A DNA stretch of 64,000 bases, taken from Panagrolaimus kolymaensis (Eukaryota > Nematoda > Chromadorea > Rhabditida > Panagrolaimidae). The stretch lies in contig JAJQJQ010000006.1 of the NCBI GenBank assembly GCA_028622995.1, forward strand, positions 620,001-684,000, given 5' to 3'. Within the stretch, counting starts at the first letter, position 1. Every line of letters begins with the position of its first letter. Below the pieces are notes generated by a model, which had not been told where the DNA came from, ran no database searches, and was given only the letters and a program-made list of their open reading frames with translations. This document shows positions 1,161-59,376 of this stretch, one piece after another. Position numbers and translations under genes: made by a program.

Positions 1161-3678
1161 TTATGAAAAAATTTTATCTTTGTCATTATTATTTCGACCA
1201 TCACCACCAAAAATGCGTTTAAACATATTTCGAATTCCTCCGCCACCTTTGATTTTTTCATCTTTTTTATCGATGGCGCCTGTGTTGCTGTTGTTTTCAG
1301 TTTCTTGAGCACTTCCACCGCCGCCGCTCGTAGTAGCAACAAGAATTGCGGCGGAAGCTTTACGACTTTTATCTCCATCATTATTTATTTCATCTTCTTC
1401 TTCATAAACGGGTGATAAATCACTTAAATTAATTCCTCCATTCCAAGGTTCACAACAAGAATTATTAAATGAAGTTGTTGTTCGACCACCACCGCCAGCA
1501 TAATAAAATGGGGCATCTTCAACTTTTTTATGAAAATCATTTTCAGTGGTGTTTTTATTTTCATAATTTTCAAAGTTTTCGTGAGTTTCAGAATCATCGG
1601 TTTCTTGAATATTATCATGTTTAGAAATATATTTTTCTTTTGGTGAATTTGATGTTGATAAATTAATTACTCGATCCAAATTATATGCAGCTGCTGCTGC
1701 CGCGGTTGCTGGAGAAGGAGGAATGATGGAAGAAGAATTTTGTGGTGGAAGGTTTAAAGTTTTTGGTTTTGTTGGTGGAGGAACGATGATGGTTATTTGA
1801 TTTGCATCTGAACTTGCACGAACTCGAGGGGTTGTAACTAAAAAAAAGCATTGGTAATTTGAAAAGATTTTTGGGTTAAAAAATAAAATTAAAAAATTAA
1901 GTGGTTTTTTGGGTTTAATTTTTTTTTAGATTTTGAAACACCATCCTAATTTTCGTTCTTCGCAAAAAAAGACGGAATGATAACTTTCAAACATTAACAA
2001 AAATATTCGAAAAAGAAGAACAAAGAAGCCTTTTTTCTTTTACGGCGCCGCGTTTTTTTCGTCGGCGTTTGAAAACTTGAAAAAATATAATATTTATTTA
2101 TGAAGCTTGGAATAAATTTGCCTTATTTTTTAAAACACAGCGAAAGGAAAATGTTTTTATTTTCAAATTTGTAAAAATTGAATTTTTTGCAATTAAATAA
2201 CAACCACAAAACAATAAACTCAGTTTAATTTTCATTGTGCTAAAAAAACCATTTTGGAATCAAATTTAAACAAATCTTCACAGTTTCATGTTAGTTTCTC
2301 AAATTTATTTTTACACATTTTCAGTTATATTTTTTAAACAAAGAAACAGTTTTTAAACATTTTACTCAGTTTTTCAAAAAAACAAAAAATAAAGAAAAAT
2401 TCTTTTAGTAGAAATTGATTTTTTTTTTGAAGCCAAAAAAACTCCTCAACAGTTTAATTTGTTAAAAATCATCGAAAGAAACTATAGTTTTATGAATTTT
2501 TTATCAAATCGCAGAGTCGCCTATAGTTCAATTCAGTTTAAAATAAAAAATCTATTTAAAATTAATCCGGAAAAGTGATTTTTACCTCATCTACAGTTTT
2601 AAATTAAAAAAATATATAAAAAATTTTGAATTTTTTTTTGTTTAAAAAGAAATAGAGTTTAGTCGACAGTTTTATTTTAAAAAATCGTGAGAAAAACGTT
2701 TTTTTCCCAATTTGCTTAACATACGCCAGTTTTTTTTTACCCATATATAAAAATATATCCAATTTTAACTTATGTCTTCCCTTAAAATAACCCTCCTCAG
2801 TTTTATATAGCATTCGCTTGTTTTAACAAGTTTCACTCAGTTTTACATTAAAAAAATTTAATTAAACATAGCTATAAAAATAAATTTAGTAACTTATTAA
2901 ACAGTTTAAAATCCGAAAACACCTAAAAAAGAATTTTTTCAGTTTTACAATTCACGAAAATTATTGATAACAGTTTTATATTAAAAAAATAATTTTAAAA
3001 ACCTTTTCCGTTAAATATTATCAAGAATCAGTTTTTTTTATCTCTTTAATAAAAATATATTATTTTTGTAGTTTAAAAACTATAATTCTATTTAATGAAA
3101 AAAAAATCCCTCACTTTCAAGTTCTTCATTTTCTTTAATGGGTTCAATGGAAACTTCTTTCATTTCATAAATTCCAGGTAAATTTTCCATTGTTTCTGCT
3201 TTTTCTAAAGGTTTATCTTGAATGAGTTCGGAACAAATTGTTCGAGAATCATCGCTGCATCGAATTTCTATGTCATCCTTGGTTATCATGTGGCCATGAC
3301 CATGATGGCCATGAATAGGTGGTGAAGGAATATCAGCTTCAGAAGTTGAAAAATATCGAGCTCGAGGGGCTCCTACAAAGAGAAAAAATTGCAGTTTAAA
3401 TTTTTTTAAATAAATAATTTTTGCAAAAAAAAAAAACTAACTTTTTCGATTTTCTTTTGCATATTTTAAAGCTTTTTGAGCTTCGGTGAAAGCTAAAAAA
3501 CAAATTGATTGAATACAGTTTTGATTAAAATTAAAAATGAAAAAAGTAACAAACTTTTACATTCATCTTCAGCTTTTTGATGTGAAGTTTCATATGGACG
3601 TGATTCTGCAACATCGAGGAGCATTTCACGCGAATCTTCAAACATTCGAAGATGAAGGGATTCATTTGATGAGGACAT
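1161..3678 (-). CDS. Unrecognised low-complexity protein, 4 exons, 369 aa
   Basis: Function unknown. Four exons on the minus strand join in phase: 3555-3678, 3442-3492, 3115-3372 and 1161-1837, giving 369 residues. The start is the ATG at 3678; an AG acceptor just upstream (TTTATAG) could be a trans-splice site or the end of a further 5' exon. The N-terminal 60 residues are charged and probably helical (ETSHQKAEDECK, then AQKALKYAKENRK). Next comes a His-rich stretch (PPIHGHHGHGH), an acidic segment, a proline-rich segment (IIVPPPTKPKTL), an alanine run, and a C-terminus with several GGGG runs ending in a basic patch (RNMFKRIFGG). No signal peptide or membrane segment is seen. The 1.28-kb last intron (1838-3114) carries the CAGTTT array. 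Exon phases support a real gene; no family was recognised. Confidence 0.7.
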
Positions 3679-3933
3679 TGCCAAGGCCAACTAACGTCAG
3701 TTAAACTATAAAATAATGCAAAAAATCAAAACAGCATTTTAAAAAACATAAACTTTTTACACAGTTTTAAATAAATAAAAAGAATTTTTTTAAAATTAAA
3801 ATCGACCCAAAAATTTATTAAACATTTTTTCTTCTTTTTTGTGGGCAGTTTCAAAAAATTAATCTTATATGGGTGCGTTGACACAAACACAAAAATATCC
3901 GACAAAATAAAACAAATGCAGTTTATTATTTAA

Positions 3934-4124
3934 AGGGACATAGCTATTTCATGCCTTTTTTGAAATTTCGTTTGCGGGCACTGAAAGTTACACTTGGTAA
4001 GGCGCGTGTTTGAATTACCGTGTAAGACAGAAGTGACACGGTAATTCAAACACGCGCCGCCCCGACTGTTCCTATCAGCCCCAGTATCGAAATTTTTGAA
4101 AAGGCATGAAATAGCTATGTCCCT
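3934..4124. mobile_element. 191-bp MITE related to the 57.5-kb transposon, TTAA TSD
   Basis: The ends are inverted (AGGGACATAGCTATTT... at the left, its complement at the right) and the element is flanked on both sides by TTAA (3930-3933 and 4125-4128). Both arms carry the block GGCGCGTGTTTGAA. The outer 80 bp closely resemble the terminal repeat of the large transposon at 57,514-62,414 (same order: AGGG.CATAGCTATTT, TGAAATTTCGTTT, AAGGCGCGTGTTTGAA). It has no coding capacity, so it is best read as a non-autonomous relative mobilised by that element's transposase or a similar one. It sits between two motifs of the CAGTTT array. Confidence 0.85.
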
Positions 4125-5546
4125 TTAAATGAAAAATAAAATTTTAATGTAATGAAGCTATTCAGTTTAAAACAAAATATTAAAATAATAAATTTAGAAA
4201 ATTAAAGCTTTAAAGATTGAAAGCAAGAGCTTTTAATCGTGACAGTTAATTGAAAAATTGTTTTCGATCCTTGAACCAAAAAATTCAAGAAAAAATAATA
4301 ATCGAAAATATTTGAAACCTACAGTTAAAAAGCAAAATCCTTAAGCTTTATCGTGTAAGGATACAACGCAGTTTAAAAAAATTTAAAATAAATAAGTTTG
4401 TGTTGGTTGCGGAGCTGTTAACCAATATTATTATGCTGTTTCAGTTTATTAGACCCTTAAACAACAAAATTTTTGTCAGTTTTTTTGAGCGAAAAAAAGT
4501 CGATAATTAAACCATATTTAGATTTTAGAAAATTTTTTGTTATTGCAATTAAAAGTATTTTTCATTGTATTATTTTAAAAGTTGGTCGTTTAGCTATGAC
4601 CAACAAATTTTAAAGATATAAACAAAATCTGGTTAATGAACATCCTTTTTGAATAGTTTTTTTTCTCTTCCAAAAAACTAACTCGTCACAAAGTTTACAG
4701 TTTATTATTATTTTGAAGAAAAAAATTATGCAAACACAACTTTTAGTAAGCAAATTTTTTTTGATACTTTCAACTCCAACAAATAAAAACAGTAAAAATT
4801 TTTAAGTTTTTAAATAAACGAAAATAGAAATATCATGAAACATCGATTTTTGGAAGTTAAAAATTTTTTTTGACAAAAATTCAAAAAGCGTTTTTATGCA
4901 GTTTAAAATTTCAATCATAAAATATGATCGTTATGACCCACGAGGTTTTCGAAAATCAAATCAGTTTATAAAAATACTGTTAATTTTCTTTGGTCATAGA
5001 ATCACAACTAACATCAGTTTATCTTTAAAACAAAAAAATTACCAAACAAGATAGAAATTCAAGTGCCAGTTTTAAAAAAACAGTATTAATAATTTCAACC
5101 CAAAAAAATTGAGGAAACTTTAAAAGTTTGAAGCATAAAATGATAAAACTAATCGAAACAGTTTAAAAAAATTAATGCCATATTTTCCCCGATGACACAA
5201 CTTCTAACAGTTAAAAAAAATAACATAAAAATAAAAAACCTTAAATAAACGTTCTCCAAAAACAGTTTATATTAATTTTCCTATATTATTTATTCTTTAC
5301 AAAATCAATAATCCACAAACAAAAAATTATTACTAAAATCTTTTTCAATTTGGATATCTAAATTAGAGTTTTAAATAAATAAATTCAAAGACACAAGCAA
5401 TCATGTAAGAGACATCTCTGTCTAAGAGAATAAAGAAAACAAAAACAAAAATCGATTAATATTTTTTTCCCGTCCATCCATCCGTCGTCACACTGCCGAC
5501 TCCTGTTGTTTCTAAACACTTTTAGGAAGAATATAAGAAGAAGATC

Positions 5547-5575
5547 GTTTATTTATTTATTTATTTATTTATTTT
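5547..5575. repeat. (TTTA)n microsatellite
   Basis: About six to seven consecutive TTTA units are visible. It lies in intergenic DNA upstream of the minus-strand gene at 1161-3678. No function is suggested. Confidence 0.8.
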
Positions 5576-7520
5576 GCTTCAAAAATACGAATACAAAAAA
5601 AAGATGATACTAAAAGTCAATGTTTTTGTTGTTTTTGATAGTTTTGTTTTTGTTAGTTGTTGTTGATGCTAGCGAAAGAAAAAAAAGAAAATATCAAGCT
5701 GCCGCCGCCGATAAATTTGAACCAATAAAAAACAAAAAACAAAGAAAAGTAAAAACTATTTTTCTTGCGCGCTGGCTGCTTTGCTTCACATAGAAATTTA
5801 AAGAAAGATATTTTCTTTTTTCCATCTTTGTTTTTATTTTATTTTTTTCTCCAGTCTAGCATCAAACACACAACAACATTGATCCGGCTGGGGCAAAAAA
5901 AAATTTAAAAGAAAAAAAAGTGTGAGCTGCTGCTTCTTTATTTTTCTATTTTTTTTAGTATTTTTTTTTCTAACGCGTTTTTCCTTCTTTTTTTCTTTTT
6001 TTTCCATAATGCTTTGATCGAAAGGCGAACGAATGGCCTTTAAAAAATTTTTGTCGGCAACAACGACAGCCCAAAAATATAAAAAATTGAGACAGAAAAA
6101 GATGATGGAAAAGAGCAAAACATTTTTCAATGAAAGTCAAATAATAAAATAAGCTTTTTCGAGGCGACTTTAAACAAAAACAGTTTTATATACTAAAAAA
6201 ATCAATTACAAAAACGATATTTTAATAAAAAAATATTTTTGCTCCATTTGAGTTTTAAACATTAAAAAAAGGAACGCAGTTTTTATTGAAAAGCTTCTAA
6301 GCTTATGTAATATTTTTGTTTTTTTAATTTGAATCTTCCCCGAAACTTCACGCAATTTTTTTTTTTTTTTATAATTAGTAATTATTCCGTCCGCAATAAG
6401 ACACACCAGTTTTAAAAAAGATAAAAATTTGATACTTAATTAGAAAAAATACTTCCCAAGTTCTTTCTTTACAGTTTTGTTTTGTTGTTGTTATAATGAA
6501 AAAGTTGATATCATTAATAACTAGATATCTCAAATCACAGTTAAATTTAAGAAAAATTTTTACTGAATATTTATTTCTTGTGTATTATTAAATTCCATTG
6601 TGCTCTCAAACCCCCAGTTTAAAATAATATCAAAAAAATTTGGCAAGCTTTAATTTAGAAAAATTACCCTTTCTCGTATAATTACAGTTTTTTTTATAAT
6701 CGCAAAACCGATATAAATCTTATTGATTTTCTGTTACAAAAAAATCGCAAAAGAACAGTATATTTAAAAAGGCTAAAATAAATTTTGTTTAGAAATTTTT
6801 TAGCCGGCCACTAAGAACCTACAATATCAGTTTTGTCTTTAGTTCTCCAAAAGTAATATTCTTTTTTTTTAATTTCGGATGCAACAGGAAGTTGGCAGTT
6901 TTAATTTAACAAAAATTTTTGAAAAAAACCTTCTGTTGCTGCGGCAATGTGGCCAAAAAAGATGGGTCGATATTGTGAATGTAAAAAATCGTAGTGTATG
7001 ATAACAGTTTCCACACAAATTAAAAACAAAGATAACTAAATACTAATAAAATCCCAAATATAAAATTACAGTTTAAATAAAATTTATTTATTGTTTTGGA
7101 TTTATGGTACCCTATCAAGGCCCGTTATCTTAAAACAGTTAAAACCGAAGTTAATTAAAAAAAAGTCAAAACTAAGCATTTTCAGTTTTGTAATTTTATA
7201 GAAAAAATTTAGCCCCTTCTGATTTAAAAAATCCTTTATTTTATTAAGAAAAAAAATTAATTTTCATATACCTTAATTGCAACCAGTTAAAAAAATTATT
7301 AATAATTCAGAAAAAAATGGATAAAATCTTTGTTGAATTCTTTCGAATTTACAGTTTGTTTGTTTTTTTGTGTGTGTCTTCTTTATTCGAAGAAAATAAT
7401 AAGATTATCTTTTAGAACAACAGTTTATTTTTAATGCTTTTATTTTTATTTTTTGATCAAATAAACAAAGTTTGTAAAAAATCTAAACAATCACAAGAAG
7501 GACTCCAGTTTAAAAAAAAA

Positions 7521-10500
7521 TTAATATTTGCAACCATTATTTGCCCAAGTCATAATATCTTTTCCATAATAACTTCGATGATCTTCAATCGAAAAATCAA
7601 GGGCGCCATCGCTGCAAGCATTGGATTCTTCTTCATCGCATTCGATGTATTTACTTTCGGATGTTAGCATTGTATTATTGAACCAAATCTGGAATTCACA
7701 AACAAATATGGACAACAGTTTTAAAATTTTTCACATGACATCCTGGGTGACAGTTTAAAACAAATTATCATAATGAAATTTTTTGATGGATTTTCGCAAA
7801 AAAAAATTTAAATTTTCTACGTTTTATTTCCCGATTTCAATCGAACTCAGTTTCTTATTTCCCTAAAATGCTTTTTTATTTATCACCCACTGGACGGCCA
7901 CAGTATGTATTCAGTTTAAAAAAAAATGATAAATTCATAATCAGTTTTATTGATAAATATTTTATGCTCATTAATAGTTATTAATCGGTGCGAACCTTCA
8001 GGACGGAATGTTGCGGATGGGAAGAATGAGGACGAGGTTTTTGAGGATGTGAAATTTGTTGATGGAAATTTGTCGAAAATTTTTTACGTATGCTAATTTG
8101 GCGGATTAAAAGTTACGGATGAGAAAATTAAGGACGAGAAATATAAGGACGTGAAATTAATTTATGGAATTATACGGATGGAAATAAGAGGATTAGAAAT
8201 ATAAGGGCGGAATTTTGAGGATTGGAATTTTGCGCATGAGAAATATAAAGAAGGAATTTTGCGGACGAGAATTTTAAGAATGGAATTTTGCGGACCGGCG
8301 CAATTTTGAAATTTTTTGAATTTTTAAAAAAAAAATTTCTTTTATTTTTGAAAGTTCGAGTCAGAATAGGAAAAAAAATTTTTATTTTGAAAAATTCAAA
8401 AAATTTCAAAATTGCGCTGGTTTCGCAAAATTCCATCCTCAAAATTCTCGTCCGCAAAATTCTCGTCCTTAAATTTCTCGAGCGCAAGATTCTCCTCCTC
8501 AAAATTCCATCACAGAAATTAACATCCTCATCATTCACATCCGTAAAAAAATATGCTCAAACTTCCATCATTAATTTTTTTTCCGCAAAATTCTAATCCG
8601 TAAAATTCCATCTCAGAAACTTCCATCCGCAAAATTACGATCCGCAACATTCCGTCCTGAAGGTTCGCACCGCCGTTTCATTCAGTTAAAATAATATAAA
8701 ATTAATAAAATGGATACTTTTCTCTTAATAAGATTCGCAAAAAAAATATTCTCAATAAATTCCTTAATTATCAAGGATGTCAGAAAGCAGTTAAAAAATT
8801 TTTAATTTACTATACTTTTGCGAAGTTTAAAGAATTTTGATTTTAAAAATGTTTATTTGTTTTTTGTTTTTTGCAAACTCATAAAAAACCACTTTTGTAT
8901 AACCACAGATGTCAAAAAAACCCAGTTTATTATTTACTTCCCAAAAAAAAAAATTTTTTCTAGCAATTTATTGAGCGATATTGATATAAATTTTCCCAAA
9001 CCCTAATAATCTTCGTCGCAGTTTAATAAATATTTAATTAAGCATAGCAGATGCTTGGTTTCCAACAAAAAAATGTTATGCAGTTAATACAAATTAATTT
9101 AATAAAGCAAAATCCAGTTTTAATTTTAAATCATGAAAAAAAAATTCCCTTTAATCGCGTTCATAAAAAAAGGAAAATTTGTTGTATTTCAGTTTATACT
9201 AAGCATTAAAAGAAAATTGATAAATTAAATTTTCTGATTTTCAGTAAAATTTTAAAACAAAAGAATGAAGGAAAAAAAATTTTTGTGAATAAAATTCAGT
9301 TAAATTTCAAATTTGAATAAAAAGTTTTTTTTAATTTCTTTTTTAAAATTTACTCATTTTTTAAAGAACAAACAAATAAAAAAAATAGGCGGTGAACAAC
9401 AAAATAGTTTTATGCCATCGTCAGTTATCTTTTTCAGTTTTAGAAATATTATATTAAGCATAACAAATTCTTTGTGAATTGAGTTTTAATATGAAAAAAT
9501 TTACAGAAATTTTTATGTAGATATTCCCAGTTTTAATTTTTTAAATCATAAAAAAATGCATTTTATTCGCATTGGTAAAAAAAACAAGACAAAGGCTGGT
9601 TCAAACAGTTTACTATTTATTGTGAGCTTTGGGAAAATCCAAGCATTAGAGTTACCAGTTTTGTTAAAGTTTTATTTATGACAGTGAAAAATATAAATTC
9701 TAGTTAAATTTTATAAAAAAGTAAAACATTTTTTAAATTTATTTATGGCTTTTAATTTATTCAGTTTTTTTTAGATCATTAGATAAATGAAAATGTCTTC
9801 TTTTATTGCTTCCGAAGTTTGTTCCTCAGTTTTTTTACATTACCACTTAATTTTTTAAGCGTCCAATAAAAATTAGCCAGACCCAGTTTTTTTTTTATTA
9901 TTAAATTTGTCTTTTATTTTTTTTATGAAATAATCCCTTCCAAAACTCTTGGCAGTTTTTTTATTAAAAATATTTACCTCACTTTTATGATGTTGATAAT
10001 TTTCAAATCCCTCAGTAGGTAAATGTGGAACGATATCATGAGCGTGAACCACTCGAAAAGAATAATTCATTAATAAATCATGGGCATTTGCATAATCTTT
10101 ATCTCCCGTTCTTGGCTGACCAAAAGTAATGAGTTTTACTTTTTCTTTTGGCAAATATCCCAATTTTATTATTTCTGCCGCACAAAGTGAAGCCATTGCC
10201 GCTCCAAGCGAATGGCCAGTTACCTGAAAATTTCCCAATTGTTTGAACACAGTTTTAAAAATAAAAAAATAAACCAAACCCAAAGTTCAAAAGTTGGATA
10301 AGAATTTTTATATTTCAAAAAATCATCTTTTATTCCAGCATTCCATAGTTTCGAGAAAGCATTATAAAAATATGAATTTACATTTCCTCCAGCAATAAAT
10401 GGATTTTGTTTTTTAAATATTGAACCAGCTTCTTCAATCACTTGAAAATCATCCGCTGAGCCACTAAAAATTAAGCTTGTTAGTTGCTTTTATTTCGTTT

Positions 10501-12110
10501 TTTTAGAAATTTTTATGTTATAAATTTTATGGCAAAATAAAAAACCTGGAATTAAACCAGGGCGAACTCCGCTTGGCAGTTTAAAAATTGTTTTAAAAAA
10601 TAAAATACAAATTATTGCTCAGTTTTGTATCAAAAAAGCGACCCAAAATTTGTTAAAGAAATGTTTCAGAAATGAACAGTTTAAATAAAAACATTTTAAT
10701 TTTGGTTATCCAATGTTTTCCCTTTATTATTTGATATTAAAAATAAACAGTTTCAGATTTATAATTTTCCAGCTCTTCTTGGGTCTCAATATTTACCGCT
10801 CCGCTCCAAATTTTGCTCCGATCCATTTGCGTGCAAGAAAATTTTTCTTTGGTTCTCTGGCGGCAAATTTCAAATCACTTTTTTTTGAATTTTTTGAATT
10901 TGTAGTTAAAAAAAAACGGAGCGGAGCAGTTTTTACTGGATCGGAGCAAAATTTGGAGCGGAGCAGTTTTTACTGGAGCCCGCTCTTCTTATTCAACAGT
11001 TTATAAAATGATTATTTCTAATTTATTCATGACTTTACACAGTATTTGAAATTCAGTTTTATTATTTTTTTATTCCACTAAGCCACTAAAATTGGTGCTA
11101 ATAAATTACAGTTTAAAAATTTTTATTAAAAATAAATTATGGAGCAGCTATGTTTCAGAACGTTCTTTATAAGAATTGGACAGTTAAAATTATTTTTATT
11201 TTTAAATTCACTAAAGTTCGCACTAAAATGACTGTATATCCATTCGTGCCCGGACCATTCGTGGAACCCCCCCATTCGTGGAAAAAATATACCAATGGGT
11301 TTCCACGAATAGGTATATTTTTTTCCACGAATGGGGTTCCACGAATGGTCCGGGCACGAATAGGTTATTTGCCCACTAAAATGTCAGAAGCCAGTTTTAT
11401 TACTTTTTTATATTATTTTCTATATCTTTATTATAATTTCAATTTGGTAAAGAATTTCAAATATTAAACGAAAGTTCAGTTTTAATTTTTCTCATAATAA
11501 ATTTTTTTAAATACAAACAATTATTTGTATACAAACATAAAACCATTAAAAGAAAATTTATTAAATAATTTTTTTAACGAAAATTAGTTAATATAATCGA
11601 AATTACTTTTTTAGTTCTATCAAAAAATAAAAAAAGTTGTAAGCGATTGAAAAAAGAGACAAGAAGTTCGTTTTAAAGGAAAAATAATTATCAAGGAGGG
11701 TGCTAAGTTTTTATTTTATAATTTTCCATTTTCACCATGTTCGATCAGTTTAAAAAAATAACTCTTAAAACTTACCGAAATGAAATAATAATGGATTTAT
11801 TGGTTATTGAAGCAGCCGTAAACGCTGCGCATGTTTCTTCTTTAATTTCATCACATCCAACAGAAATTAATCGTTCAAACTAAAAAACCCAATGTGAAAC
11901 CAAAGACAGTTAGATTAATATAAAAATCACTTGATTTTCAGGGAATAAATCATTCAAACATTTTTGTGGAGATAATGAAAATGCTGAAGCAGAAATTGGA
12001 TACATATAATTTCGAGAAAATGGGGCATCAAAAGTGATGGCGGCATTTGTGAAGAAGGCATAAGCCGTAACAATAAAAATTGAAAAAATAAATACATAAA
12101 AATTCGCCAT
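7521..12110 (-). CDS. Secreted class 3 lipase, 5 exons, 293 aa
   Basis: A triacylglycerol lipase-type alpha/beta hydrolase (Pfam Lipase_3), likely secreted. Five exons join in phase: 11,931-12,110, 11,776-11,879, 10,280-10,463, 9978-10,223 and 7521-7688. The start is the ATG at 12,110, followed by a hydrophobic signal peptide (FYVFIFSIFIVTAYAFF). Family landmarks occur in order: the SFRGS strand (oxyanion-hole region), the nucleophile elbow GHSLGAA, then ITFGQPRTGD, the catalytic Asp in HDIVPHLP, and the catalytic His in EDHRSYYG, with paired cysteines (IECDEEESNACS) before it. All three catalytic residues are therefore present, the last in a short exon separated by a 2.3-kb intron. That intron carries a 687-bp foldback element, and the intron at 10,464-11,775 carries two more. 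All introns hold CAGTTT motifs. The natural substrate cannot be told from sequence. Confidence 0.93.
7986..8672. mobile_element. 687-bp foldback element in lipase intron
   Basis: The outer arms are perfect inverted repeats of about 30 bp (CGGTGCGAACCTTCAGGACG at the left, its complement at the right). The inside is built from short degenerate units around GGAATTTTGCGGA and GGACGAGAA on the left half and their complements on the right half, so the whole element can fold back on itself. It has no coding capacity and no clear target-site duplication. CAGTTT motifs stop at 7942 and resume at 8683; without the element they would be 54 bp apart, so it inserted into a pre-existing array. Confidence 0.8.
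10796..10978. repeat. Inverted repeat, GCTCCGATCC type, in lipase intron
   Basis: CCGCTCCGCTCCAAATTTTG followed by CTCCGATCCA at about 10,796 is inverted at about 10,937-10,966 with a loop of roughly 110 bp. The right arm is itself part of a direct repeat (GGAGCGGAGCAGTTTTTACT occurs at about 10,917 and again at about 10,954). It looks like a small foldback element or MITE, and its type is unclear. Confidence 0.6.
11242..11361. repeat. 120-bp near-perfect hairpin in lipase intron
   Basis: ATTCGTGCCCGGACCATTCG at the left is exactly inverted at the right, and the inversion continues inward (GTGGAACCCC, ATTCGTGGAAAAAATATA) to a loop of about 15 bp. The unit CATTCGTGGAA occurs several times. 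The whole could form one long hairpin. No target duplication is evident. It is probably a small foldback/MITE insertion. Confidence 0.7.
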
Positions 12111-13055
12111 CAAAAAAAATATGGGTATTACTTTGTTTCAGTTTTTAATTGTTTGAAGAATGGTTTTTGTTTTTGACTTTATCAGTTTTTTCCTTTTCAT
12201 TAATTTTTTGTTACCGAAAAAAAAGACAAAAAAAAGAGGGAAAATTGATTGAAAGCAATCAATAAAATAATCAACTCAGCAAATTGTTCTCACAGTTAAA
12301 AAATCTAACAAGCAAAAATGTTTAAAAAAAAAAAAGTAAAAAATCAAAGCAAACAATATCGCTTTCTTTTTTTTCATAATTTTTTACTCTGTGAATGAAA
12401 AAAACAAAATTCATTCATTCTTCTTTTTTTCATATTCAAAAGCTTGGTTTATCAATATTTTTTTAAATTTAATTAATATCTTTTTCATGTTTGATATTCG
12501 CAGTGGCAGTGGCAGTGGAGAGACAGACATAAAAAAAGAAGAAGGTTTCCTTCGTTCTTGGTAAAATAAATATTTATTATTAAAGTTTTCGTTGAATTTT
12601 TCCATCAATAAAACATTATCCGTTTATGCATTTTTTAGTTTAGTTTTTCTCGTTTTAATAAAAGAGACCATCGAAAATTTTTGATATTAGAATCAAGGAA
12701 AACCTTTATGCAGTTATTTTTACGAAAAGTGTTACCTCACATACATTAATAAAAATGGATACTAAAAATATTCAAAAAACGAAGTGAATAAAGCTTTTAA
12801 AAAAACTATGTAATTTGCTGCTTTAGCATATTTTTATCCCTTCTTTTTTCGCAAGTGCAGTGAAACAAGTAACAAAAAGAATCTTTGGATGTTTGTTATA
12901 ACAAATCGAATTTTAACATTACAGATGCTACACAAAGCTAATTATACGGGTATAAGATGGCAAAGAAGAATAAGAACAACAAAGATTTTATTTATAAATC
13001 ACAAAGAAATGATAAAACAAAGTAAATAAAAAACACGGCAAACAAACAAAAATAA
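12111..13055. other. Intergenic region upstream of lipase, no gene seen
   Basis: Non-coding AT-rich DNA between the lipase start and the BTB gene stop. The CAGTTT array ends near 12,297 (single weaker copies follow, such as 12,711). It probably holds the lipase promoter and the 3' end of the BTB gene; no element is recognisable. Confidence 0.5.
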
Positions 13056-14347
13056 TCAAAATTCAATATCATTTTGAGCACAAAAAACTCTGCAGCGCTT
13101 TCGAAGATCTTTCATTTCGTATTGTTCAGCCATTTGTAAGCGAGTATGAACATTTTCAACAGTCATTGTTTGATCAAGTTTAACAAGAGTAAGTGCCTAA
13201 AAATAGAAGCATTTTAGACAAGAAAGTATTAAAGAAAGAAAACTGCTTACCATAAGTTGTTGGATATCATATTTATCGGCAATTCTGTAAAGTTCTTCAA
13301 ACTCTTCAACATCAGTGATAGCTCCATTTTCACAAAATTCAACCATTTGACGAACAACTTCAGCATCAAAGTCGACAATTTCAATAGAATTTTCAGTTGA
13401 TTCTTTCCAATCTTGATCAAACATTGCTTTGAAGACAGACGAACTTGCAGCCATAAATGGTTTACTTGTCTGAAAACATATGTATTTGAAAAGTAAAGAT
13501 AAAAAAACAAAAAACTTACTTCGATAGTATTTCCTTTGCATTTGATGGTAAACTTAATTGAAGGATCATCTTTCCATAGTTGCTTTAAGTTTTCGCTAAC
13601 ACTTTTCATTTCCATTAAGGTTGAAGATGAGCATTGTCGAGTTGTAATAACATCAACATAGAGGCATAACTTCTTACAGTCTTTATCGATTGTGAATGCT
13701 AAAATTAATAAAAATTAGATGTTATCAATAACTCTTAACTCTTACAATTTCCTTCAACTTCTTCATTTTGGTCAAGAAAATATCCATATTTGAATACACC
13801 AGGATTAGGATTGATATCAATGTAAAATGATAAAGAATCAGGATTAAAAGGTTCTCCACTTCTATCACGAATAGCACCGCGATAAGGATGATCACGAGCA
13901 GGATTACCGCGACGATTAGGAAGATCACGATCAGGAGCACCAGGACGATTAGGAAGATCACGATTAGGAGCATCAGGACGATTAGGAAGATCGCGATCAG
14001 GAGCACCAGGACGATGAAGAAAATCACGATCAAGAGCATCAGGACGAAGATCACGAACATGAGCAAGGCGGTGATAAAGATAAAGATCCATAAAATAATC
14101 GGGCCTACGACCTTTTCTGTTAAATATGAAAATTCCAGTATGTTTTGTGCCAGTGTAAGGATCAATTGATGTCATAACCGGACTACTAAATCCATTTGCA
14201 GCAAGTTGTAAAAAATCATCATGGGCACTAATATCGAGATTCCATACGAACATTTTGTTAATACGAACAACCTGAAAGAAAAAAATAATGATAAATTAAA
14301 TTATATAATAATGAACTTACTTGAGATTTAGCAGAAGTCGAAGACAT
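13056..14347 (-). CDS. BTB-domain protein with 11-residue repeats, 363 aa
   Basis: Probable Cullin-3 adaptor-type BTB protein. Five exons join in phase: 14,321-14,347 (MSSTSAKSQ), 13,746-14,271, 13,520-13,698, 13,251-13,469 and 13,056-13,196. The C-terminal half is a BTB/POZ domain: FTIKCKGNTIE, then MAASSSVFKAMFDQDWKES, EIVDFDAEVVRQMVEF, ADKYDIQQLM and a BACK-like start (MAEQYEMKDLRKRC). The N-terminal half (VWNLDISAHDDF, FYIDINPNP) may be a divergent MATH domain, which would make it a MATH-BTB protein of the kind expanded in nematodes, but that is not certain. It is interrupted by tandem units like RPGAPDRDLPN. The introns are short and lack the CAGTTT array, unlike the flanking lipase gene. 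Confidence 0.88.
13870..14060. repeat. 33-bp tandem coding repeats
   Basis: In-frame 33-bp units within the BTB gene encode about five imperfect copies of an 11-residue R-P-x-A-P-x-R-D-x-P/H-N/H unit. Some copies differ by only one or two bases, which suggests recent slippage or unequal exchange. Because the unit is AGGA/GATC-rich, other frames also stay open here; those are not genes. Confidence 0.85.
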
Positions 14348-14688
14348 GTCGCTGTAATAAATCTTGAAAAAACCAATGAACAGATGAAAGATAAAGTTTA
14401 TGATGAAAGTTTTCAAGGACGTATCAAAAAACTTTTTAACAAAAAAAGATTAACAAAAAACAACGAAACAAAGATTCTACCGCGTGGCACAAGATTTTCT
14501 TCGCAAGAGTTAGTAGATTTAAAATTTCTCTAGCGAGTAAGCTTGTTATTGAGCGAAGTCGATGAAGCTTTTTGTTTTAGGAATTCTAAATTTAGTCATT
14601 TTGATGAAAATAGAAATACGTTAATATTTATTTATTAATAAAAGAAATACATACAAAAAAATGTAAAAAAAAAGTTAAAAACATGAAT
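14348..14688. other. Compact intergenic spacer, no gene seen
   Basis: About 340 bp separates the BTB start codon from the end of the next minus-strand gene. Because the BTB gene lies downstream in the direction of transcription, the spacing is at the loose end of what nematode operons show; no spliced-leader evidence is available. The plus-strand open frame at 14,321-14,533 has no family features and overlaps the BTB start. Confidence 0.45.
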
Positions 14689-16284
14689 TTATTCAATAGT
14701 AGTTTTCTTTGAAGCTTGTTTGCTTTTCGATTTAGTTGATGCTTCATTATCATCTCCACCTTTCTTAGATTTTTAAATTTTGTCGCTTCCTTTAGTTGAT
14801 GGCTTTGATTTATTTTTATCCTTATTTGTTGTTTTCGTCATTGGTTTGGTAGTACTTGGAGCTTTCAAAACAACTGATTCTTTTGTTGTTGAAGCAACTG
14901 GAGCAGCAGCAGATACAGATAGAGGAGGTGGTTGTGGTAACAGTTTTGGAACATCCTTGACTTTCTTTTTACTTTTTGCAACTGATGATTGTTTGAATGA
15001 AGCATTATTGGCTTTTTTCTTTTGAGATTCTTCCTTTTTTCGTTGTTGTTGTATTCCTTCAACTTGATTGTTGTCTTCAATTTTTGGTTGTTGTTGTATT
15101 CCTTCAACTTGATTGTTGTCTTCAATTTTGGGTTGTTGTTGTTCTTTGAATTTTCTTGCTTTCTTTAATTTTCTTTCAAAATAGCACCAATAACTGAAAT
15201 ACAATAAGCATAAGTAAAATGAACATTCAACTAATAAAGGAGGGAATTAGAAGTTAGTAGTAGCTATTTAACGCCATTGCAAAGTTATAAACTTGTACGA
15301 GAAATAAAATTACCCAATAGCAAATACAGGAATAATCAAAACGATGATAACAATGATGAGAATAATCCACCAATAATTTGCCATAAATCCTGCATCTGCT
15401 ACATTTGTTGAACTTGGTATGGCATTTGATTGAGTAGTCGAAGGATTGATTGTCGATGTTGTAGTTGTTACTGGCTTTTTGATTATAGCATCTTTCTAAA
15501 AACGTAAGTTTAGAAAAGGAATGAATGAAAATGGAAGAAAACATGCAATATTGATTGGACATGACGAATCAGCTTTGATAACTTGAAATTTGATATTTCC
15601 ATCTTTGTCGAATTTAGGAGTACAGCTAGCAAAAAATTCAGCCATAAATACAAAATCAGCTTTAGGATGCTTCATCACATATTCATAACATTCAGGAAGC
15701 TTGGACTTTTTAAGAGGTGTACCTAAAGCAAAATATCCATGAGTTCATTGGATCAGAATCTTTGACTTACTATTATCTAACATAATATCATCTTCAACAG
15801 CTATTATCTTTACTCCACATTGAGATGGATCAGAACATAATTTAGCAGCTTCATCATTAATTTGGCCAGCTTCAGCTTCATAGCAAATATGGAAACTAAA
15901 AAATGAAAAAGTATGAATGACTCGTGATTAAAGAAATAAACAACAAACTTACTCCCCAGTGCAATTATTAGGACAAATAACAAAAGTTAATGATCCATTG
16001 GAAATTGTTAGTTCAATATCACCATGTCCAATGAAACCAACAACACCATTTTCTTCTTCAGTTGCAATTAAACTTCGAGCATTACCAACATCAGCAGATG
16101 CAATATTTTCAATAGCAGCATTTTTACCATTTGATGAAATTGATGAGAGAGAAGAATCCTTCAAATCCAGATTATGTCGTTGTACTCTTAAACCAATATT
16201 ACATTCAACAACAGGAAACAAAGGTAACACAGCAGCAAAAAGAAATATTAATAATTTGATGGAACCGCAACAGCCAATTTTCAT
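14689..16284 (-). CDS. One-pass membrane protein with Lys-rich tail, nematode type
   Basis: Unrecognised type I membrane protein. The start is the ATG at 16,284 with a signal peptide (LLIFLFAAVLPLFPVV). Exons are about 15,953-16,284, 15,772-15,897, 15,545-15,721, 15,313-15,494 and from 15,194 downward. The exon 3 to exon 4 junction is uncertain because the best in-frame acceptor is not the expected one. The ectodomain has paired cysteines (CPNNCTG, FHICYEAEAG, SQCGVK, LPECYEYV, SCTPKF). It is followed by a Thr/Ser-rich stalk and one membrane helix (WWIILIIVIIVLIIPVFAI). The cytoplasmic tail has two copies of a 16-residue QQQPKIEDNNQVEGIQ unit and then a Lys-rich region. An in-frame TAA at 14,773-14,775 ends the frame, but the same frame continues in the same Lys-rich style for 27 codons to a second TAA at 14,689. 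I give the longer extent; the annotated stop may be either. Confidence 0.65.
15040..15140. repeat. 48-bp direct coding repeat (two copies)
   Basis: Two adjacent, nearly identical 48-bp units encode the duplicated QQQPKIEDNNQVEGIQ segment of the membrane protein tail, with a partial third start (QQQRKKEE). Simple in-frame duplication. Confidence 0.8.
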
Positions 16285-16629
16285 TATCGTTGTTTTGTTT
16301 GTTTGAATGAATGAAGGAAAGCAGTTTCGAGAAAGAAAAAGCTATGGAAAAGAGTGGAAACGCAACATGCAAATTTTAATGGATTTTCCCAAGCTTTTGG
16401 ATAACAACTTTAGCGTGTCTTTTTTGAGGATAGCTAACTAATACGCCTGCTTGTAACTTCAATGCTATCTAACACTTTTGCTTAAATCCAACTACAAAAA
16501 CACACATAAATTTTTGGCTCAAAAAAGGTTTATAAAAATCAGAAAACAAAAAAAGTAAAGTAAAAATTTAAGTACAAAATCAAAAGTAAAAAACAATAAA
16601 AGCGAAATCAAAGATTTTGTTTAATTTAT

Positions 16630-17309
16630 TCATTCATCTTCTTCATCATCATCCATTTCAATATATTCGAGATTATCGTCATCTTCATCGGCTTCATCAA
16701 GATGATCAGGTTCAGGTTCTAGTTTGGAATAAACGATTAAATCACGATTGATTTGAGCTTCTTCTTCATCAGTGAAATCAGAAGGTAAATTCATAAAATA
16801 TCGTAATTCATCCACGGTTTTTCCTTTGCACCATAAATTCAAACAATAACATCCAGCATCAATGAGACGAGGCATATTCAAGTAATTTGCAGCACATAAA
16901 ACTTCCATTAACTTGTCGTTTGATAACTTTGATAATAGCTTCATTTCCCATTCATCTTTTGATGGTTGATTTGTGGCTGCATCGATCGTTGATAAAGGAA
17001 CATAAGTTGGAGAATCTTTGAAATAATCACAAAATTTAATGAGAATTGGAAGTATCGAACTTGAAACTTGAAATAATTCTAATTTGATTGGTTCATTTTC
17101 TTTTGATGGTTGACGATCAAAATCTGAAAAAATAAAAATGTGAGTTAGCAACCGAGAAAAAACAAAAACTTACTTGTAGCATCAGTTAAAAGGATAGATT
17201 CTTTGATGAAAGCATAATCAATGATGAAAGAATTTCCATTTTCAGTGATGAGTTCAAATTTAGAAGAATGTTTTTGAGTTGGTGAAGCATCAATCATTTC
17301 ATAATCCAT
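16630..17309 (-). CDS. SKP1-like protein, 2 exons, 209 aa
   Basis: Relative of SKP1, the adaptor that links F-box proteins to Cullin-1 ubiquitin ligases. Two exons join in phase: 17,174-17,309 and 16,630-17,123. The N-terminal half is a divergent POZ fold (FELITENGNSFIID). The C-terminal half matches the SKP1 dimerisation region: DKLMEVLCAANYLNMPRLID, then CKGKTVDELRYFMNLPSDFT followed by DEEEAQINRD. The usual short WCEEK-type end is replaced by an acidic tail of about 40 residues (DEADEDDDNLEYIEMDDDEE), longer than typical SKP1 (about 160-170 aa). Nematodes carry many SKP1-related genes, and this fits that divergent group. The ATG at 17,309 is chosen because the frame upstream is intron-like. 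Confidence 0.9.
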
Positions 17310-18546
17310 ATCCACGGTTTTTGACGAAAGAAAAAGCAGAGGAAAATTGATAATAATTTGCAGCAAACGAAGATCAAGAAAATATCGAAGATGAAAAGAA
17401 AAAGATGAGAAAGTTGTTGCAAGTTTGATTTGTGATTGAAAATAATAACTTTTTTGAAGTTGGAAAAAGAAGCGAAATGAAATAAGCTTTCTTTCAAAGA
17501 CAAAAAAAAAATGAAGGATGCCTTCAAAGGTCAAAGCGATTACATGGCAAGATGTCAAAGCCGAGTCAAATTGGCGACATTTATTTTTCTTTAGGCTATA
17601 TTTTTGAAAGGCTTTTTCTTTGCACTGATCGAATAAAAAACGAAAAACCCGCGGAGATGATTATTATTTTTTAAATTAATATGCATATTTGAATATTTTG
17701 CTAAAATATTCGCCAAAAGTTAAATGTTTTTTTACACTTTTGAAGCTAAAGCTCTCATACATTTCTTCCAAAGAAAATATTTGAAAATAAAATTTATGAA
17801 TTTTTTGTTTAGTAAACTAAAAAATGTGATTACCCTTGACTTTTCCTTTTTCTATGCAGTTTATTGGCTTTTTTAATTACTTGATTTTGTTGTTATAGCA
17901 TTAAAGCAGGCAGCTTTTCTATTTGGCTTGGAAGAATTTTTTTTTTGAAAACGAATTTCATTCGAAGTTGTTGATTCAAAATGCAGATGCTAAAAATTTT
18001 CATTGGAACAACAATCCTTCAACAAAACAAAAGACAGTTTAATTTTATTTTTTACCATACTTTTACTTTTCCAGTTTTGGCGATTTTTTATTCAAAAAAA
18101 TTTTGAATTTAAATGAAAAAACAACATTTTTTTCAAATTCAGTTTTATAATATTTTTAACCTTTCGACCTTTTGTGTGTTTTTTTTTATTCAAAGGAAAA
18201 GCTTTTTAACTTATGTTTTAACTTATTTTCTTCTTCCCAAATATTACTCTTGTCAGTTTATTGAACATCCAAAAAACAAAAAAATGTCGCCTTTTTTATA
18301 TAATTTTTTGTTAGATAAAAAAAACACAAGTAGCAATCAAATAAAATATATTTATTTTATTGTCTCATAAATATGCGTGGTTTTTTGGTGATTATTCATA
18401 CAAACATAGACATTTGACATAAAAATTAACAGTTTTTTACGCATTCTCTGGACATTAATTACCCGGGGATTAAAAAACAAAATAAATAAACATTACACAG
18501 TTTTTTTTTCTTTTTAAAAGAAAAGGACAATTTGGAAAGTGTGTAT
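17310..18546. other. Intergenic region, no gene seen
   Basis: Non-coding AT-rich DNA between the SKP1-like start and the ML-domain gene stop. CAGTTT motifs begin near 18,033. The plus-strand open frame 18,113-18,370 is Phe/Lys-rich and overlaps three motif copies; I do not treat it as a gene. Confidence 0.5.
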
Positions 18547-20020
18547 TCAGTTTTGTTCAGAAAAACGAATTTGTGCTACAACGCATGCAATTTCTTCATG
18601 CTTTGAATCTTGATTATAATCAAACATGCGAACTTCAAGTTGATATGGTTTCTGAAAAAAAAAAAGAAGACTATAGATGAATTCAGTTTTATTATGAAAT
18701 TTTTTTAAAAGAAAAATCATGTTTAGGTCATGCTTACCCGCCGAGATAATTTTATATATACAGTTTTTTCTTGCGCTTTTAAGGGCGCTTTTTTACCTTG
18801 AATCCCATAATGAAAATTTTAAAAGGTAACAGTTTTTTGACTAATCTGGGGGCAAGCAGTTAAAGACGAGAAAAAAAAGTTAAAAAACATTTTTTTTCAT
18901 ATTTTCTTTAGAAGAAACAAAGGTACAGTATTTTTCACTAGTATATTTCAAAACGAAGTGTTTTCGAAGGTCACAGTTTTCTATGTTGCATTTCAGTTAA
19001 TTTTAAAATATCTAATGGACAAACATAAAGTTTTCGTGATTTTTTTTCCGAGAGATTCTGTGCTGCAGTTTTTCTAATTTCCCTTGGCTGTTTTTGAAAG
19101 TATACAGTTTTGTTTTTGTAATAGCAGTAAATAGCAGTTAAAAATTTATCGGAATAGAAAAAAATTCCTCTTTTTTTTCTCGCTAGAAACCCCGGTGTTG
19201 CAGTTTTAATATTTTCCTTTATAAAAAGTAACTTACATTAGCTGCAAGAGTATTAATAATTTGTGCAAAGCCTGAAAGATCTAAAGATAATTTAAGATCG
19301 AGATCTCCAGTTTGAAGAGGGCAATTATGAGCAAACTCGCAACCATCAATATCATTCAAAAGTCCAAAAGTTGGAATTTCAGACCATTTACAATCTCCAG
19401 AAAGCCAATCCACGCCATATTGAAGAATTTTAACTTTCACTTTATTATCAGTATAAACTACGCCATTATTTACGCTAATCAAATCAAGAACCATAGCTTT
19501 ACGAGGATCAATGGGATACATAGGATTTCCATTGCCATCATAAACTTTTGAATCTTTTACCATTAATGGCCAAGCTAAAAAAAAATTACGGTAATTTTAA
19601 GAAAGACAGTTTGTTAGTTTTTTAAAAAAGTACTCAGTTTAAATAATAAAAACTTTTAATCTTCGACAACGAAAAAGATTCTACGCAGTTTATAAAAAGA
19701 TTTAAGATTTTTAAATTATTTCCTATCCACCGACACTTTTATTTGTGCCTATGATTTGTAGAAAGTTGGTCCTGTCTTTATTAGCAATTTGCAGTTTTAT
19801 ATTAAATTAACTTTATTGAATAAACAAAAATATCTAATCTAGAATGTTTCATCTGTAACAGTTTCAAACTTTTATTAAAAAACGTCCAATTTTTATGGTA
19901 ATATTTTTCTTTACAAAACAGTTTATTTTTTACACTCAAATAAAATGAAACATATTTTTGTTCATTATTCCTTCAACGATCAGTTTTTTTTTTCATACTT
20001 AAAATTATTTTCCAGTTTAA
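18033..20020 (+). repeat. Plus-strand CAGTTT motif array, block 2
   Basis: The same motif as in block 1 recurs on the plus strand through the 3' flank and both introns of the ML-domain gene. Copies are seen near 18,034, 18,073, 18,140, 18,255, 18,429, 18,499, 18,548, 18,685, 18,761, 18,830, 18,974 and onward. One copy (18,548) overlaps the gene's own TGA stop codon: the last codons AAC AAA ACT GA are the complement of CAGTTTTGTT. The array stops before exon 1 and does not extend upstream of it. Confidence 0.8.
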
Positions 20021-20241
20021 TAATACCGTAATTATTTTTTTCTGCCCAAAATAAATCCTTTTAACCCATTTAAAAAATTCAACTTACTTCCATCACAATT
20101 AAATGTATGAATTTTGGTGTCAGTTCCGTTAGGGAAATCACAAGTTTTTAAATTGTGAAGTGGAATAGCTGATCCATTTCCAACAAGCATCAAAACAACA
20201 ACAGCTACAGCTACAACAAGGCAAGAAAGTTTGTTGAACAT
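18547..20241 (-). CDS. Secreted ML-domain (GM2 activator-like) protein
   Basis: Small secreted lipid-binding protein of the MD-2-related lipid-recognition (ML) family. Three exons join in phase: 20,088-20,241, 19,237-19,574 and 18,547-18,651, about 198 residues. It starts MFNKLSCLVVAVAVVVLMLV, a clear signal peptide. The mature part has the family's spaced cysteines (LKTCDFPNG, FNCDGTWPL, GDCKWSE, DGCEFAHNCPLQTGD, EIACVVAQIRF) and a strand typical of the fold (YQLEVRMFDYNQD). The length and Cys pattern fit GM2-activator-like members. Such proteins bind sterols, phospholipids or glycolipids; the ligand here is unknown. The two introns (436 and 585... about 0.5 kb each) are much longer than those of the neighbouring SKP1-like gene and are filled with the CAGTTT array. 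Confidence 0.88.
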
Positions 20242-22306
20242 ATTTTACCTTTTTGATTTGAAAATTAAGAAATTGGGCGATTTTATGTCTACTTTTATAT
20301 TCTCCCAAAATGAATAATATTTTTGTGAGGTCGAAGAACAATGAATTATCTATTATTTTATTTGCTTTTTTTTATGGTAAGGGGAAATGGTGGAGGCATA
20401 ATCTATGCTAACTATATGGGTCTCCATTTTTTTTATGTCCGGTATAGATAAGGCTATAAATTTTTGTTCATGGGTAATAAAGTGGTGCCACCCCAGATTC
20501 AGCAGCAGCAGCCATCAAGCAACAAAGAATTAATTCTTATCTAATTTATTTTATTCTATTCATCATTATAAGATCGCATAAAATAAAATATAGAATAGGA
20601 ATAATCATGCGAGAGGAGGGGAAGGAAGAAAAATTTTAGGCAACAGCAGCAGAATAAAATTTATAGCTAAGTAACTAACCTTGTTTGCTTGAATAAGATT
20701 TTTTTTATGGAAGCTAAAAACACAAAAAAATAAATAACAATGAAAATGATTATCTTTTTTTTTTTTGCAAGAATCAATCTTGCTTTTTTTGTTGAGAAAA
20801 AATGTAAACAAGAAATCTAAAAAGTTGGAAACACAAAAAAAAGAAAGGTTAAATATAATTAATTGGCGTTAGTTGTTGACGGAAGGAAACTATGCCCGTT
20901 GATCATTGAAGTGATGGCTCTAAAATTCATTTTCGGGGTACTGTAGGGAAAGAAAAAGCTATTGATGACTTTTAAAAAAATGCATGGTTGTTGTGTTTCA
21001 TTTTGATGAATAAATGACCGTTATTAAAAATAATTTTTTTTTTAAAGTGAAACTTATATTATAAAAATTTAGAAAGTTTTTTAACAGTTAATAATATTTT
21101 TTTACATGGCTTTCATTCAAGACAGTTTAAAAACAAAACAAACATATTTCACAGTTTATAAAAAAAGAAATAACCTTCTAAATTAATCTTTTTCTTGAAT
21201 TTTTCAGTTTTGTTTTGATTATTTGTTAATGAAGCCAGTTAAATCTATAGTAAACTTTTTTTGAAAACCAATATAAGAAGAAAAATAAATTAAATTAAAA
21301 ATATTCTTATATCGCTATAAACAGTTTAATTTTTCACCGAATATTTAAAAAAATTTTTTTTTCTGTTTTAGTATAGTTTAAAATAAAACGATAATAACGG
21401 AGTCATTCAGTTTAATTTTCTATTTTTTTTTGATTCTAGAATTTTGCAGGTTTTTTTATTTGAATTAAAAAAAAGAAGATAATTCGAAACTTAATATGTT
21501 ATCGTTTCCTTTGAAAAACAGTTTTACATAAAATTTAATTATTAATTCTTTTAGATTTTTTTTTTCTAAAAATCAGCCAACTCAGTGGACACTTAATTAT
21601 TGGCAAATTCAGTTTTTATTAAATTGTGTAAAAATTCTTTGCGAAAAATTGTTTTTCAAAGACTATTCAAAAAAACACGAAATTTACCAGTTTTATTTTT
21701 TATTTTAAAGTTTAATTAAAAACTGAGGATAGAGTATCCATCCTAAATTAAATATTAACAGTTTTTTTTATTTCATAAATTTTTTTCTTACCTTTGCCTC
21801 CAAGTTTTTCTAATCAACAGTTTTTATGACAAAAAAAGAAAAACGTGTTTATAGTTTTATATTTCTGTGATCGATGTTAAAAAATTATTTTCTTTTTTTA
21901 CAGTTTATTAAATTTAAATAGCTTTAATGGATTAATCGATGATTAAAAATTTGGCTGACAGTTAACAAATTTTTTTATTTGCTTTTTTTTAATAAATTTA
22001 ATATAATAAAAAAGCCAAAACTCCAATAACAATTTTAGATCATTGTCAAACAGTTTTTTTGGGTTTATTTTTTTATTAGATTTGCTCCACTTTTCTATGA
22101 CTACACAAGTTCAGTTTTAAATCTTTGGATCATAACAAAAAGTTCAATTTATTCCAGTTTTTTAATATCCAAAAATATTAAATGGGTTTTATTGAAGAAA
22201 TTATTTAATGACAGTTTAAATTTTCAAAAGTGTTTTTTTTTGTTTTTGTTTTTTTGGTGTATGTTTCACCAAAGAAATCTCGGCTCAGTTTTTAAACGAA
22301 ATATAT
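20242..22306. other. Intergenic region, 3' half with motif array
   Basis: No gene is supported. The first 0.8 kb (20,242-21,080), upstream of the ML-domain gene, has no CAGTTT copies and probably holds its promoter. From 21,085 the array resumes and runs into the 3' end of the GH19 gene. The open frame 20,605-20,811 is low complexity. Confidence 0.5.
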
Positions 22307-26685: not shown

Positions 26686-26764
26686 TTTTATTAATAAATT
26701 TACTAAATCAAAAAAAAATAGTGTCAAACTTACCTAAAATTCCAGCAACAGCAATCATAACCAT
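22307..26764 (-). CDS. GH19 chitinase-like secreted protein, 5 exons, 459 aa
   Basis: Family 19 glycoside hydrolase (chitinase class I-like), likely secreted. Five exons join in phase: 26,734-26,764, 26,313-26,467, 26,044-26,264, 24,016-24,488 and 22,307-22,806. Splicing exon 1 to exon 2 makes a signal peptide (MVMIAVAGILVLFFIANPS). The GH19 core follows: PYSYDAFIIASRYFPEFG; AAFFAHIVQETGE, where the Glu after Gln aligns with the first catalytic Glu of the family's HET motif; then GCYFGRGPFQLSWNYNYGQF (the hallmark motif), ALWFYMTPQPPKPSMHDII and VFGPTSLVINKECGGE. The C-terminal 130 residues (WRAKPCDCAPAPYPG onward) extend past the usual family end. GH19 enzymes cleave chitin; nematodes have chitin in eggshells and pharynx, so moulting, eggshell or antifungal roles are possible. 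Introns of 1.2 and 1.6 kb carry the CAGTTT array. Confidence 0.93.
22962..23198. mobile_element. 237-bp hAT-type MITE built of TTTCCG repeats
   Basis: Terminal inverted repeats CAGGGATGGTCGGAA at the left and the complement at the right are flanked by an 8-bp target duplication, ATCAAGAT (22,954-22,961 and 23,199-23,206). CAGGG ends and 8-bp duplications are typical of the hAT superfamily. The interior is almost entirely TTTCCGTTTCCGG-type repeats and their relatives, with a large G+C contrast to the host intron. It lies in the last intron of the GH19 gene. Removing it leaves a 60-bp gap between neighbouring CAGTTT motifs, the normal spacing. Confidence 0.88.
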
Positions 26765-59151: not shown

Positions 59152-59376
59152 GCACTTAGTCTATTTGTTTGCCTATTGCTATGCTTCACACTTATAAAAA
59201 GAAAAGATTGAATAACTTTCGTTGATGACTTTGCTTTTCTTCAATTTGATTTCATTTGTCGTTTATTCATCATACCCGTTCGCAACAATTCTCTTTTAGT
59301 ATAAAATTTGCGTGTATTTACTCCTTATCCCATTTTCATAATAAGATCCTTTCATCAATTGATATTTATTTTTAGA

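Follow-up and report, generated by a model that had tools for sequence, protein, structure and literature searches.

Arrays of CAGTT-marked, rapidly diverging 20-mers in the nematode Panagrolaimus kolymaensis as candidate small-RNA genes

The motif array and its neighbours

Panagrolaimus kolymaensis is a clade IV nematode. The window analysed here is a stretch of 64,000 bp (positions 620001-684000 of contig C5) from a 265.8-Mb assembly with 807 contigs, described as triploid in its publication (PMC10374039). The short word CAGTT[T/A] recurs on the plus strand in two blocks: block 1 (2221..12716) holds 95 copies, each with a 20-base segment directly 5' of it, and block 2 (18035..26291) holds about 80 copies with the same anatomy. 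The gap between them (12717..17856) contains three scattered copies, together with BTB and Skp1-type exons on the minus strand, and an exon of a class I (GH19) chitinase lies on the minus strand within block 2 (24014-24505). Homeologous copies of the array locus were found on contigs C20 (83%) and C23 (79%, both over the first 860 bp of the array). Inside block 1, at ~3930-4136, lies a MITE-like element of ~200 bp with long terminal inverted repeats, which is missing at the same place in C20 and C23; another copy is present on the C23 stretch.

The initial annotation had described the array as reaching from 2221 to 12300, with near-regular spacing and a more than 20-fold enrichment. Its copy counts (16 in 2221-3029 and 14 in 21085-21959) were exact and the array is present where it was placed, but its extent had been set too narrowly: there are two blocks in the window (2221-12711 and ~18035-26286), and left of the window the array continues on the opposite, minus strand (C5:603-617.5 kb). 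Between 2221 and 12300, 94 copies on the plus strand face 0 on the minus strand, as compared to 7.6 ± 2.6 and 3.6 in 100 dinucleotide shuffles. The near absence from the reverse strand was thus borne out and the enrichment survived the shuffle control, albeit at ~12-fold. The region 18001-27000 gave the same picture (82 and 1 vs. 7.6 and 3.9) and 27001-62000 had no excess (24 and 13 vs. 22.0 and 24.5). The whole window has 213 copies on the plus and 18 on the minus strand. In the array-free part, 27001-62000, [AT]AACTG is below the shuffle prediction (13 vs. 24.5 ± 5). CAGTTT is the hexamer with the greatest strand asymmetry in the two blocks taken together (143 vs. 1).

The distances between motifs have a mode of 55-75 bp, as had been claimed, but they vary too much to be called regular (coefficient of variation 1.2-1.3). 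What they have instead is a floor: only 3.2% and 1.4% of the gaps in the two blocks are shorter than 26 bp, whereas ~21% would be expected for random (exponential) spacing, and neighbouring units rarely overlap. The array also tends to avoid exons, since nine hand-listed exon ORFs hold 9 of 177 units where 27 were expected. Tandem Repeats Finder did not find an array-wide unit but local repeats alone, for example at 8109-8657 and at 10918-10979, the latter containing the motif; a tandem repeat or satellite is thereby ruled out. Rfam gave 0 matches in the window at the gathering threshold.

Clusters in the genome

The array is real and reaches far beyond the 64-kb window. The triple CAGTTTN{45,75}CAGTTTN{45,75}CAGTTT occurs 2351 and 2395 times on the two strands of the whole assembly (control 90 and 78), and triples with gaps of 60-63 occur 39 and 43 times, giving 82 matches where the control had 0. 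These dense triples lie on C3 (6.80-10.01 Mb, n = 16), C5 (0.48-2.61 Mb, n = 13), C18 (0.40-3.57 Mb, n = 11), C20 (0.05-2.45 Mb, n = 9), C23 (0.27-2.79 Mb, n = 11), C40 (0.01-0.20 Mb, n = 6) and C42 (0.23-1.74 Mb, n = 8), with four on small contigs and four on C6. The matches on C6 all come from a single tandem repeat of 66 bp that looks coding, contains CAGTTT and imitates the array pattern (C6:3792166-3792501). With C6 excluded, seven large contigs hold 74 of the 82 dense triples, within ~15 Mb that make up some 6% of the assembly; of these contigs, C5, C20 and C23 are homeologs at the window locus. Outside of the observed clusters, each of 28 other loci (eight of 10 kb and twenty of ~3.7 kb around Argonaute exons) had at most six motif copies per strand. 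Plus and minus blocks alternate over tens of kilobases where this could be read, both strands are used on C3, and blocks of opposite strand do occur side by side. Scaled from three regions, the total comes to ~50,000 (triples) to 57,000 (pairs) units, which for a single haplotype means 17,000-19,000; the estimates are approximate, as density may vary and the counting rules differ between the counts compared.

Anatomy of the unit

On the minus strand, a unit reads [A/T]AACTG followed by N20, which equals N20 directly 5' of CAGTT[T/A] on the plus strand. Examples on the plus strand are 2514..2539 (20-mer 2514-2533, CAGTTT 2534-2539), 6665..6690, where the 20-mer (6665-6684) is strongly diverged and the motif (6685-6690) is invariant in three homeologs, and 10230..10255, where the 20-mer (10230-10249) is heavily substituted in the other two homeologs and CAGTTT (10250-10255) is kept. 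This geometry differs from the one proposed initially, a promoter motif with a T start 35-45 bp downstream. At that distance from CAGTTT the profiles of base composition and identity are flat, and the variable segment lies on the opposite side, directly next to the motif.

Base composition was profiled in the AACTG reading over 771 sites, which come from three homeologs and hence are non-independent. GC is as low as 5-18% in the seven bases before [A/T]AACTG, a patch that is A/T-symmetric with no T bias; it is ~29% in the body and falls back to 24% at position 21. Positions 16-20 of the body have an excess of G, with 29% G at position 20 (p = 7e-12 in 284 sites of C5 alone). The same step is seen in a second cluster, on C3, where a sample of 67 units among 97 rows, chosen by eye, had a GC content of 0.319 in the 20-mer vs. 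0.228 in the preceding 20 bases, with C at 0.24 at positions -20 to -16 and a GC of 0.15 after the motif. K-mer enrichment yielded no extra upstream motif but only the AACTG of neighbouring units and A/T words, and the Pol II pause dinucleotide YG was not jointly enriched at positions 19-20 (33 observed, 44 expected). The bodies are mostly unique; only 4 pairs among 284 are within five mismatches (ungapped), which rules out repeated or recently copied 20-mers.

Fast divergence of the body beside a conserved motif

Aligned identity of C5 to C20 and C23 was 0.88-0.90 in the flanks and 0.79 at positions -19 to -1. In the profile around CAGTT[AT], with 629 site pairs counted in one direction, identity rises from 0.864 at -19 to nearly that of the flanks at -20 (0.888) and -21 (0.900). 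The motif positions themselves had identities of 0.95-0.99 over all homeolog pairs. Taken separately, the plus blocks and the opposite-strand block (43 and 53 sites) each showed the drop, and in the younger split between C20 and C23 the flank had 0.929 and the body 0.874. The ratio of body to flank divergence was 2.03 (bootstrap limits 1.80-2.29) and 1.98 (1.78-2.21). Fourfold degenerate sites of eight exon stretches had identities of 0.883 (280/317) and 0.894 (286/320) and noncoding DNA outside the arrays 0.886 and 0.871 (~820 sites each), next to 0.795 and 0.787 for the body; since fourfold sites match the flanks, the body diverges at about twice the neutral rate. By distance from the motif, divergence was 0.224 at body positions 1-7, 0.190 at 8-12 and 0.219 at 13-18, then 0.161 at position 19, 0.124 at position 20 and 0.102 at 21-30, giving a sharp edge at the motif and a graded far edge. 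The lower value at positions 8-12 (difference from the rest of the body -0.03, interval -0.057 to -0.007) is a post hoc observation on which we do not rely.

None of 16 control words showed a comparable drop at -19 to -1 (identity 0.873-0.952 with 17-329 site pairs each, a slight dip being seen with CACTT and CAATT). Single-base variants of the motif ranged from 0.868 to 0.983, lowest in CACTT (0.868), CGGTT (0.882) and CAATT (0.885), so that the motif may have weaker variants. CAGTTT and CAGTTA behaved alike (body identity 0.816 and 0.824). Enrichment and acceleration, which were measured independently, thus pick the same word. Of the aligned sites in the window, 129 of 155 and 135 of 161 retained CAGTT, as compared to a mean of 0.535 for its permutations, only three of which, with 2-8 cases each, reached equal retention.

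All four bases change faster in the body than in the comparison (identity 0.844 vs. 0.922 for A, 0.680 vs. 0.805 for C, 0.693 vs. 0.826 for G and 0.810 vs. 0.907 for T), which rules out a confounding by base composition. Most changes are dispersed point substitutions. Relative to the 5' flank, every one of the six substitution classes is elevated (1.3- to 2.1-fold); relative to the 3' flank this holds for five, the exception being C/G (0.277 vs. 0.406). The spectrum is not deaminase-like. At the few sites where the other homeolog has a broken motif, 18-26 per comparison, most of the acceleration was retained; body identity there somewhat exceeded that of intact sites in four comparisons and was lower in the other two.

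Candidate small-RNA genes and alternative explanations

The explanation to which we give about an even chance is that the units are small-RNA genes on the opposite strand, each consisting of [A/T]AACTG and a variable guide of 19-20 bases. Each CAGTT[T/A] would then mark one tiny noncoding gene in which an AT-rich opening patch is followed by an initiator-like [A/T]AACTG and the unique body of 19-20 bases, from which a small guide RNA would be made. A start at the U of AAC-UG would give a 21-nt RNA with a 5'-U (UG + N19) and a start at the G one of 20-21 nt; in the AACTG reading a fixed U (or G) start comes free. The sharp motif edge and the graded far edge would suit a small RNA with a fixed 5' and a ragged 3' end, which would favour the AACTG strand, and the A/T-symmetric patch appears to resemble a site of DNA opening rather than a U-tract terminator. 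The motif would be conserved because every unit needs it, and the body would diversify because novel guides are favoured or, at least, because its rate of change is raised. The guides may load one of the many non-PIWI Argonautes and might so distinguish foreign from own transcripts. The small-RNA array suggested initially is indirectly supported by the compositionally distinct, fast-evolving and rarely overlapping 20-mers in megabase clusters; the downstream geometry suggested with it was wrong. Against small-RNA genes speak the absent upstream motif, the absent pause dinucleotide and the acceleration at motif-broken sites.

A further point against them is the strand of neighbouring units. Genome-wide, 17,894 neighbour pairs at 45-75 bp are on the same strand (control 3,970), and opposite-strand pairs, 887 and 776, are below their controls of 1,445 and 1,584. 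Autonomous promoters leave this shared strand unexplained; it favours the CAGTT reading or long precursors. The 20-mers could be cut from long precursor RNAs of one direction with the motif as a processing mark, as in fly piRNA clusters, the product being N20-CAGUU (plus) or AACUG-N20 (minus). The body abuts the motif with no promoter spacing, as such processing would have it, but the strand of the blocks is not obviously tied to that of the host genes and precursors would leave the AT-rich patch beyond the motif unexplained. We consider this reading unlikely. In the window the exons are on the minus and the array on the plus strand, at C5:603.3-607.3 kb the apparent exons, by ORF reading alone, and the array are both on the minus strand, and block strand seems to be independent of host genes.

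A somewhat smaller chance is given to a mutation hotspot, in which the 18-19 bases next to the motif are damaged or shielded by a bound protein or an initiating polymerase, and functional RNA is not produced. For an increase in nearly all substitution classes a higher overall mutation rate would suffice, the mostly scattered changes agree with it, and the acceleration, as judged from few broken sites, does not clearly depend on a motif that is intact in both homeologs. However, the accelerated box is one-sided, of fixed length and of distinct base composition, there is no deaminase-like bias, and the strong retention of the motif together with the spacing of the units implies that the unit itself is selected.

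At the pairing centres of C. elegans, short motifs occur in large numbers, clustered in certain chromosome regions, and a protein-binding array for chromosome behaviour, be it pairing-centre-like, a chromatin domain or nucleosome phasing, would likewise account for short-motif clusters that are largely confined to a few contigs. To our knowledge, the C. elegans arrays have neither a hypervariable partner segment nor strand blocks, and a binding array could do without strand uniformity and without a one-sided, unique, accelerated and GC-richer 20-mer. The A/T phasing considered initially was weak (autocorrelation of A/T clusters peaks at 0.05 at lags 12-14), a strong 10-bp A/T periodicity as in periodic A/T clusters was not seen in the array, and phasing is disfavoured since it would leave the accelerated box of 18-19 bases unexplained. 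Taken as a whole, a binding array is improbable. Nematode 3' splice sites contain CAG, but a by-product of splicing or a composition accident of AT-rich DNA is refuted by the 12-fold excess over dinucleotide shuffles and the 94:0 strand bias; the upstream 20-mers, which are GC-richer and have no T-tract, and the tendency of the units to avoid exons also speak against it.

Relation to known small-RNA systems

In the triploid assembly, at least 143 exon matches to the Piwi domain indicate a large Argonaute set. An exon-wise six-frame search for a PIWI-clade Argonaute (PRG-1) had a best match of 58 bits and 28% identity; the Piwi-clade probe gave 269 bits with Siwi and 104 bits with Ago2 in phmmer against the PDB, and this check and the assembly search were scored by different programs. 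A PIWI-clade Argonaute is, judging from these matches, likely absent. According to PMC4323106, which cites their absence in Panagrellus, piRNAs were not found in clade IV nematodes, and this counts against the small-RNA genes proposed above.

In several respects the units resemble the 21U-RNA loci of C. elegans and C. briggsae: there are thousands of them, each pairing a conserved motif with a body that changes fast (18-19 nt plus the TG of the motif, 20-21 nt in all, against ~21 nt), in a few megabase-scale clusters of AT-rich, mostly noncoding DNA as is typical of type I piRNA loci. Published figures are over 15,000 type I loci for C. elegans (PMC7917550) and clusters of 2.5 and 3.7 Mb (PMC6436959), and the GC-richer body followed by lower GC is like the pausing signature described in the latter. 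In type I loci a GTTTC-type Ruby motif lies upstream, whereas in the array [A/T]AACTG directly adjoins the body. On both strands of three array blocks there are just two copies of the Ruby motif CTGTTTCA, and GTTTC was not among the k-mers enriched upstream of the units. C. briggsae clusters use both strands and their piRNA bodies are under little selective pressure, as stated in PMC9683057, whereas neighbours within 45-75 bp in the array share their strand and the body changes at about twice the neutral rate. In the size and number of its units and the size of its clusters, the array would thus work as type I piRNA loci do, but on this comparison it is not a member of that class, because no PIWI-clade Argonaute and no Ruby motif were found, the geometry is different and the blocks are strand-uniform.

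Like the Pristionchus-type intronic piRNAs described in PMC6436959, units lie in introns, but in Pristionchus the motif and Piwi are present, neither of which was found here, and the array units are concentrated on few contigs and also intergenic. The clade IV nematode Strongyloides ratti has, by the account in PMC9203780, piRNA-like 21-22-nt RNAs with a 5'-U that come from AT-rich clusters, with AT-rich sequence upstream and in the absence of PIWI; the putative RNAs of the array would resemble them. The loci of S. ratti, in which an upstream motif was not found, overlap heavily, whereas in the array every unit has its motif and units seldom overlap. The array could be a motif-driven relative of the S. 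ratti 21-22U RNAs.

Published reports of the motif or of such arrays in Panagrolaimus were absent from the matches listed in open-access full text; the CAGTTT and AACTG strings that turned up there are a FISH probe and an adapter sequence and are unrelated to the array. A bolder reading, given somewhat less confidence than the small-RNA genes as such, is that of a PIWI-independent guide-RNA system, in a nematode lineage considered to have lost piRNAs, with ~17,000-19,000 marked loci per haplotype, guides that change faster than neutral, an abutting motif of its own and strand-uniform blocks. If true, motif-driven piRNA genes would have been reinvented independently or deeply remodelled, and the array would be a candidate system for transposon silencing or recognition of foreign RNA in nematodes that do not have PIWI. 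Change of the body beyond the neutral rate would show guide repertoires that are driven to diversify and do not merely drift. Such a genome-encoded catalogue of motif-marked 20-mers could be tested at once by existing small-RNA methods.

Further features of the window

A long transposase-like ORF on the plus strand (59305-61566) has three protein matches, the best of which is from Panagrolaimus sp. ES5; they include an uncharacterized protein of Panagrolaimus and a Ditylenchus transposase. Between 26844 and 40716 lies a direct tandem duplication of 6,940 bp (26844-33783 and 33777-40716) with 99.97% identity (2 mismatches), which carries minus-strand exons and is either recent or a duplication in the assembly.
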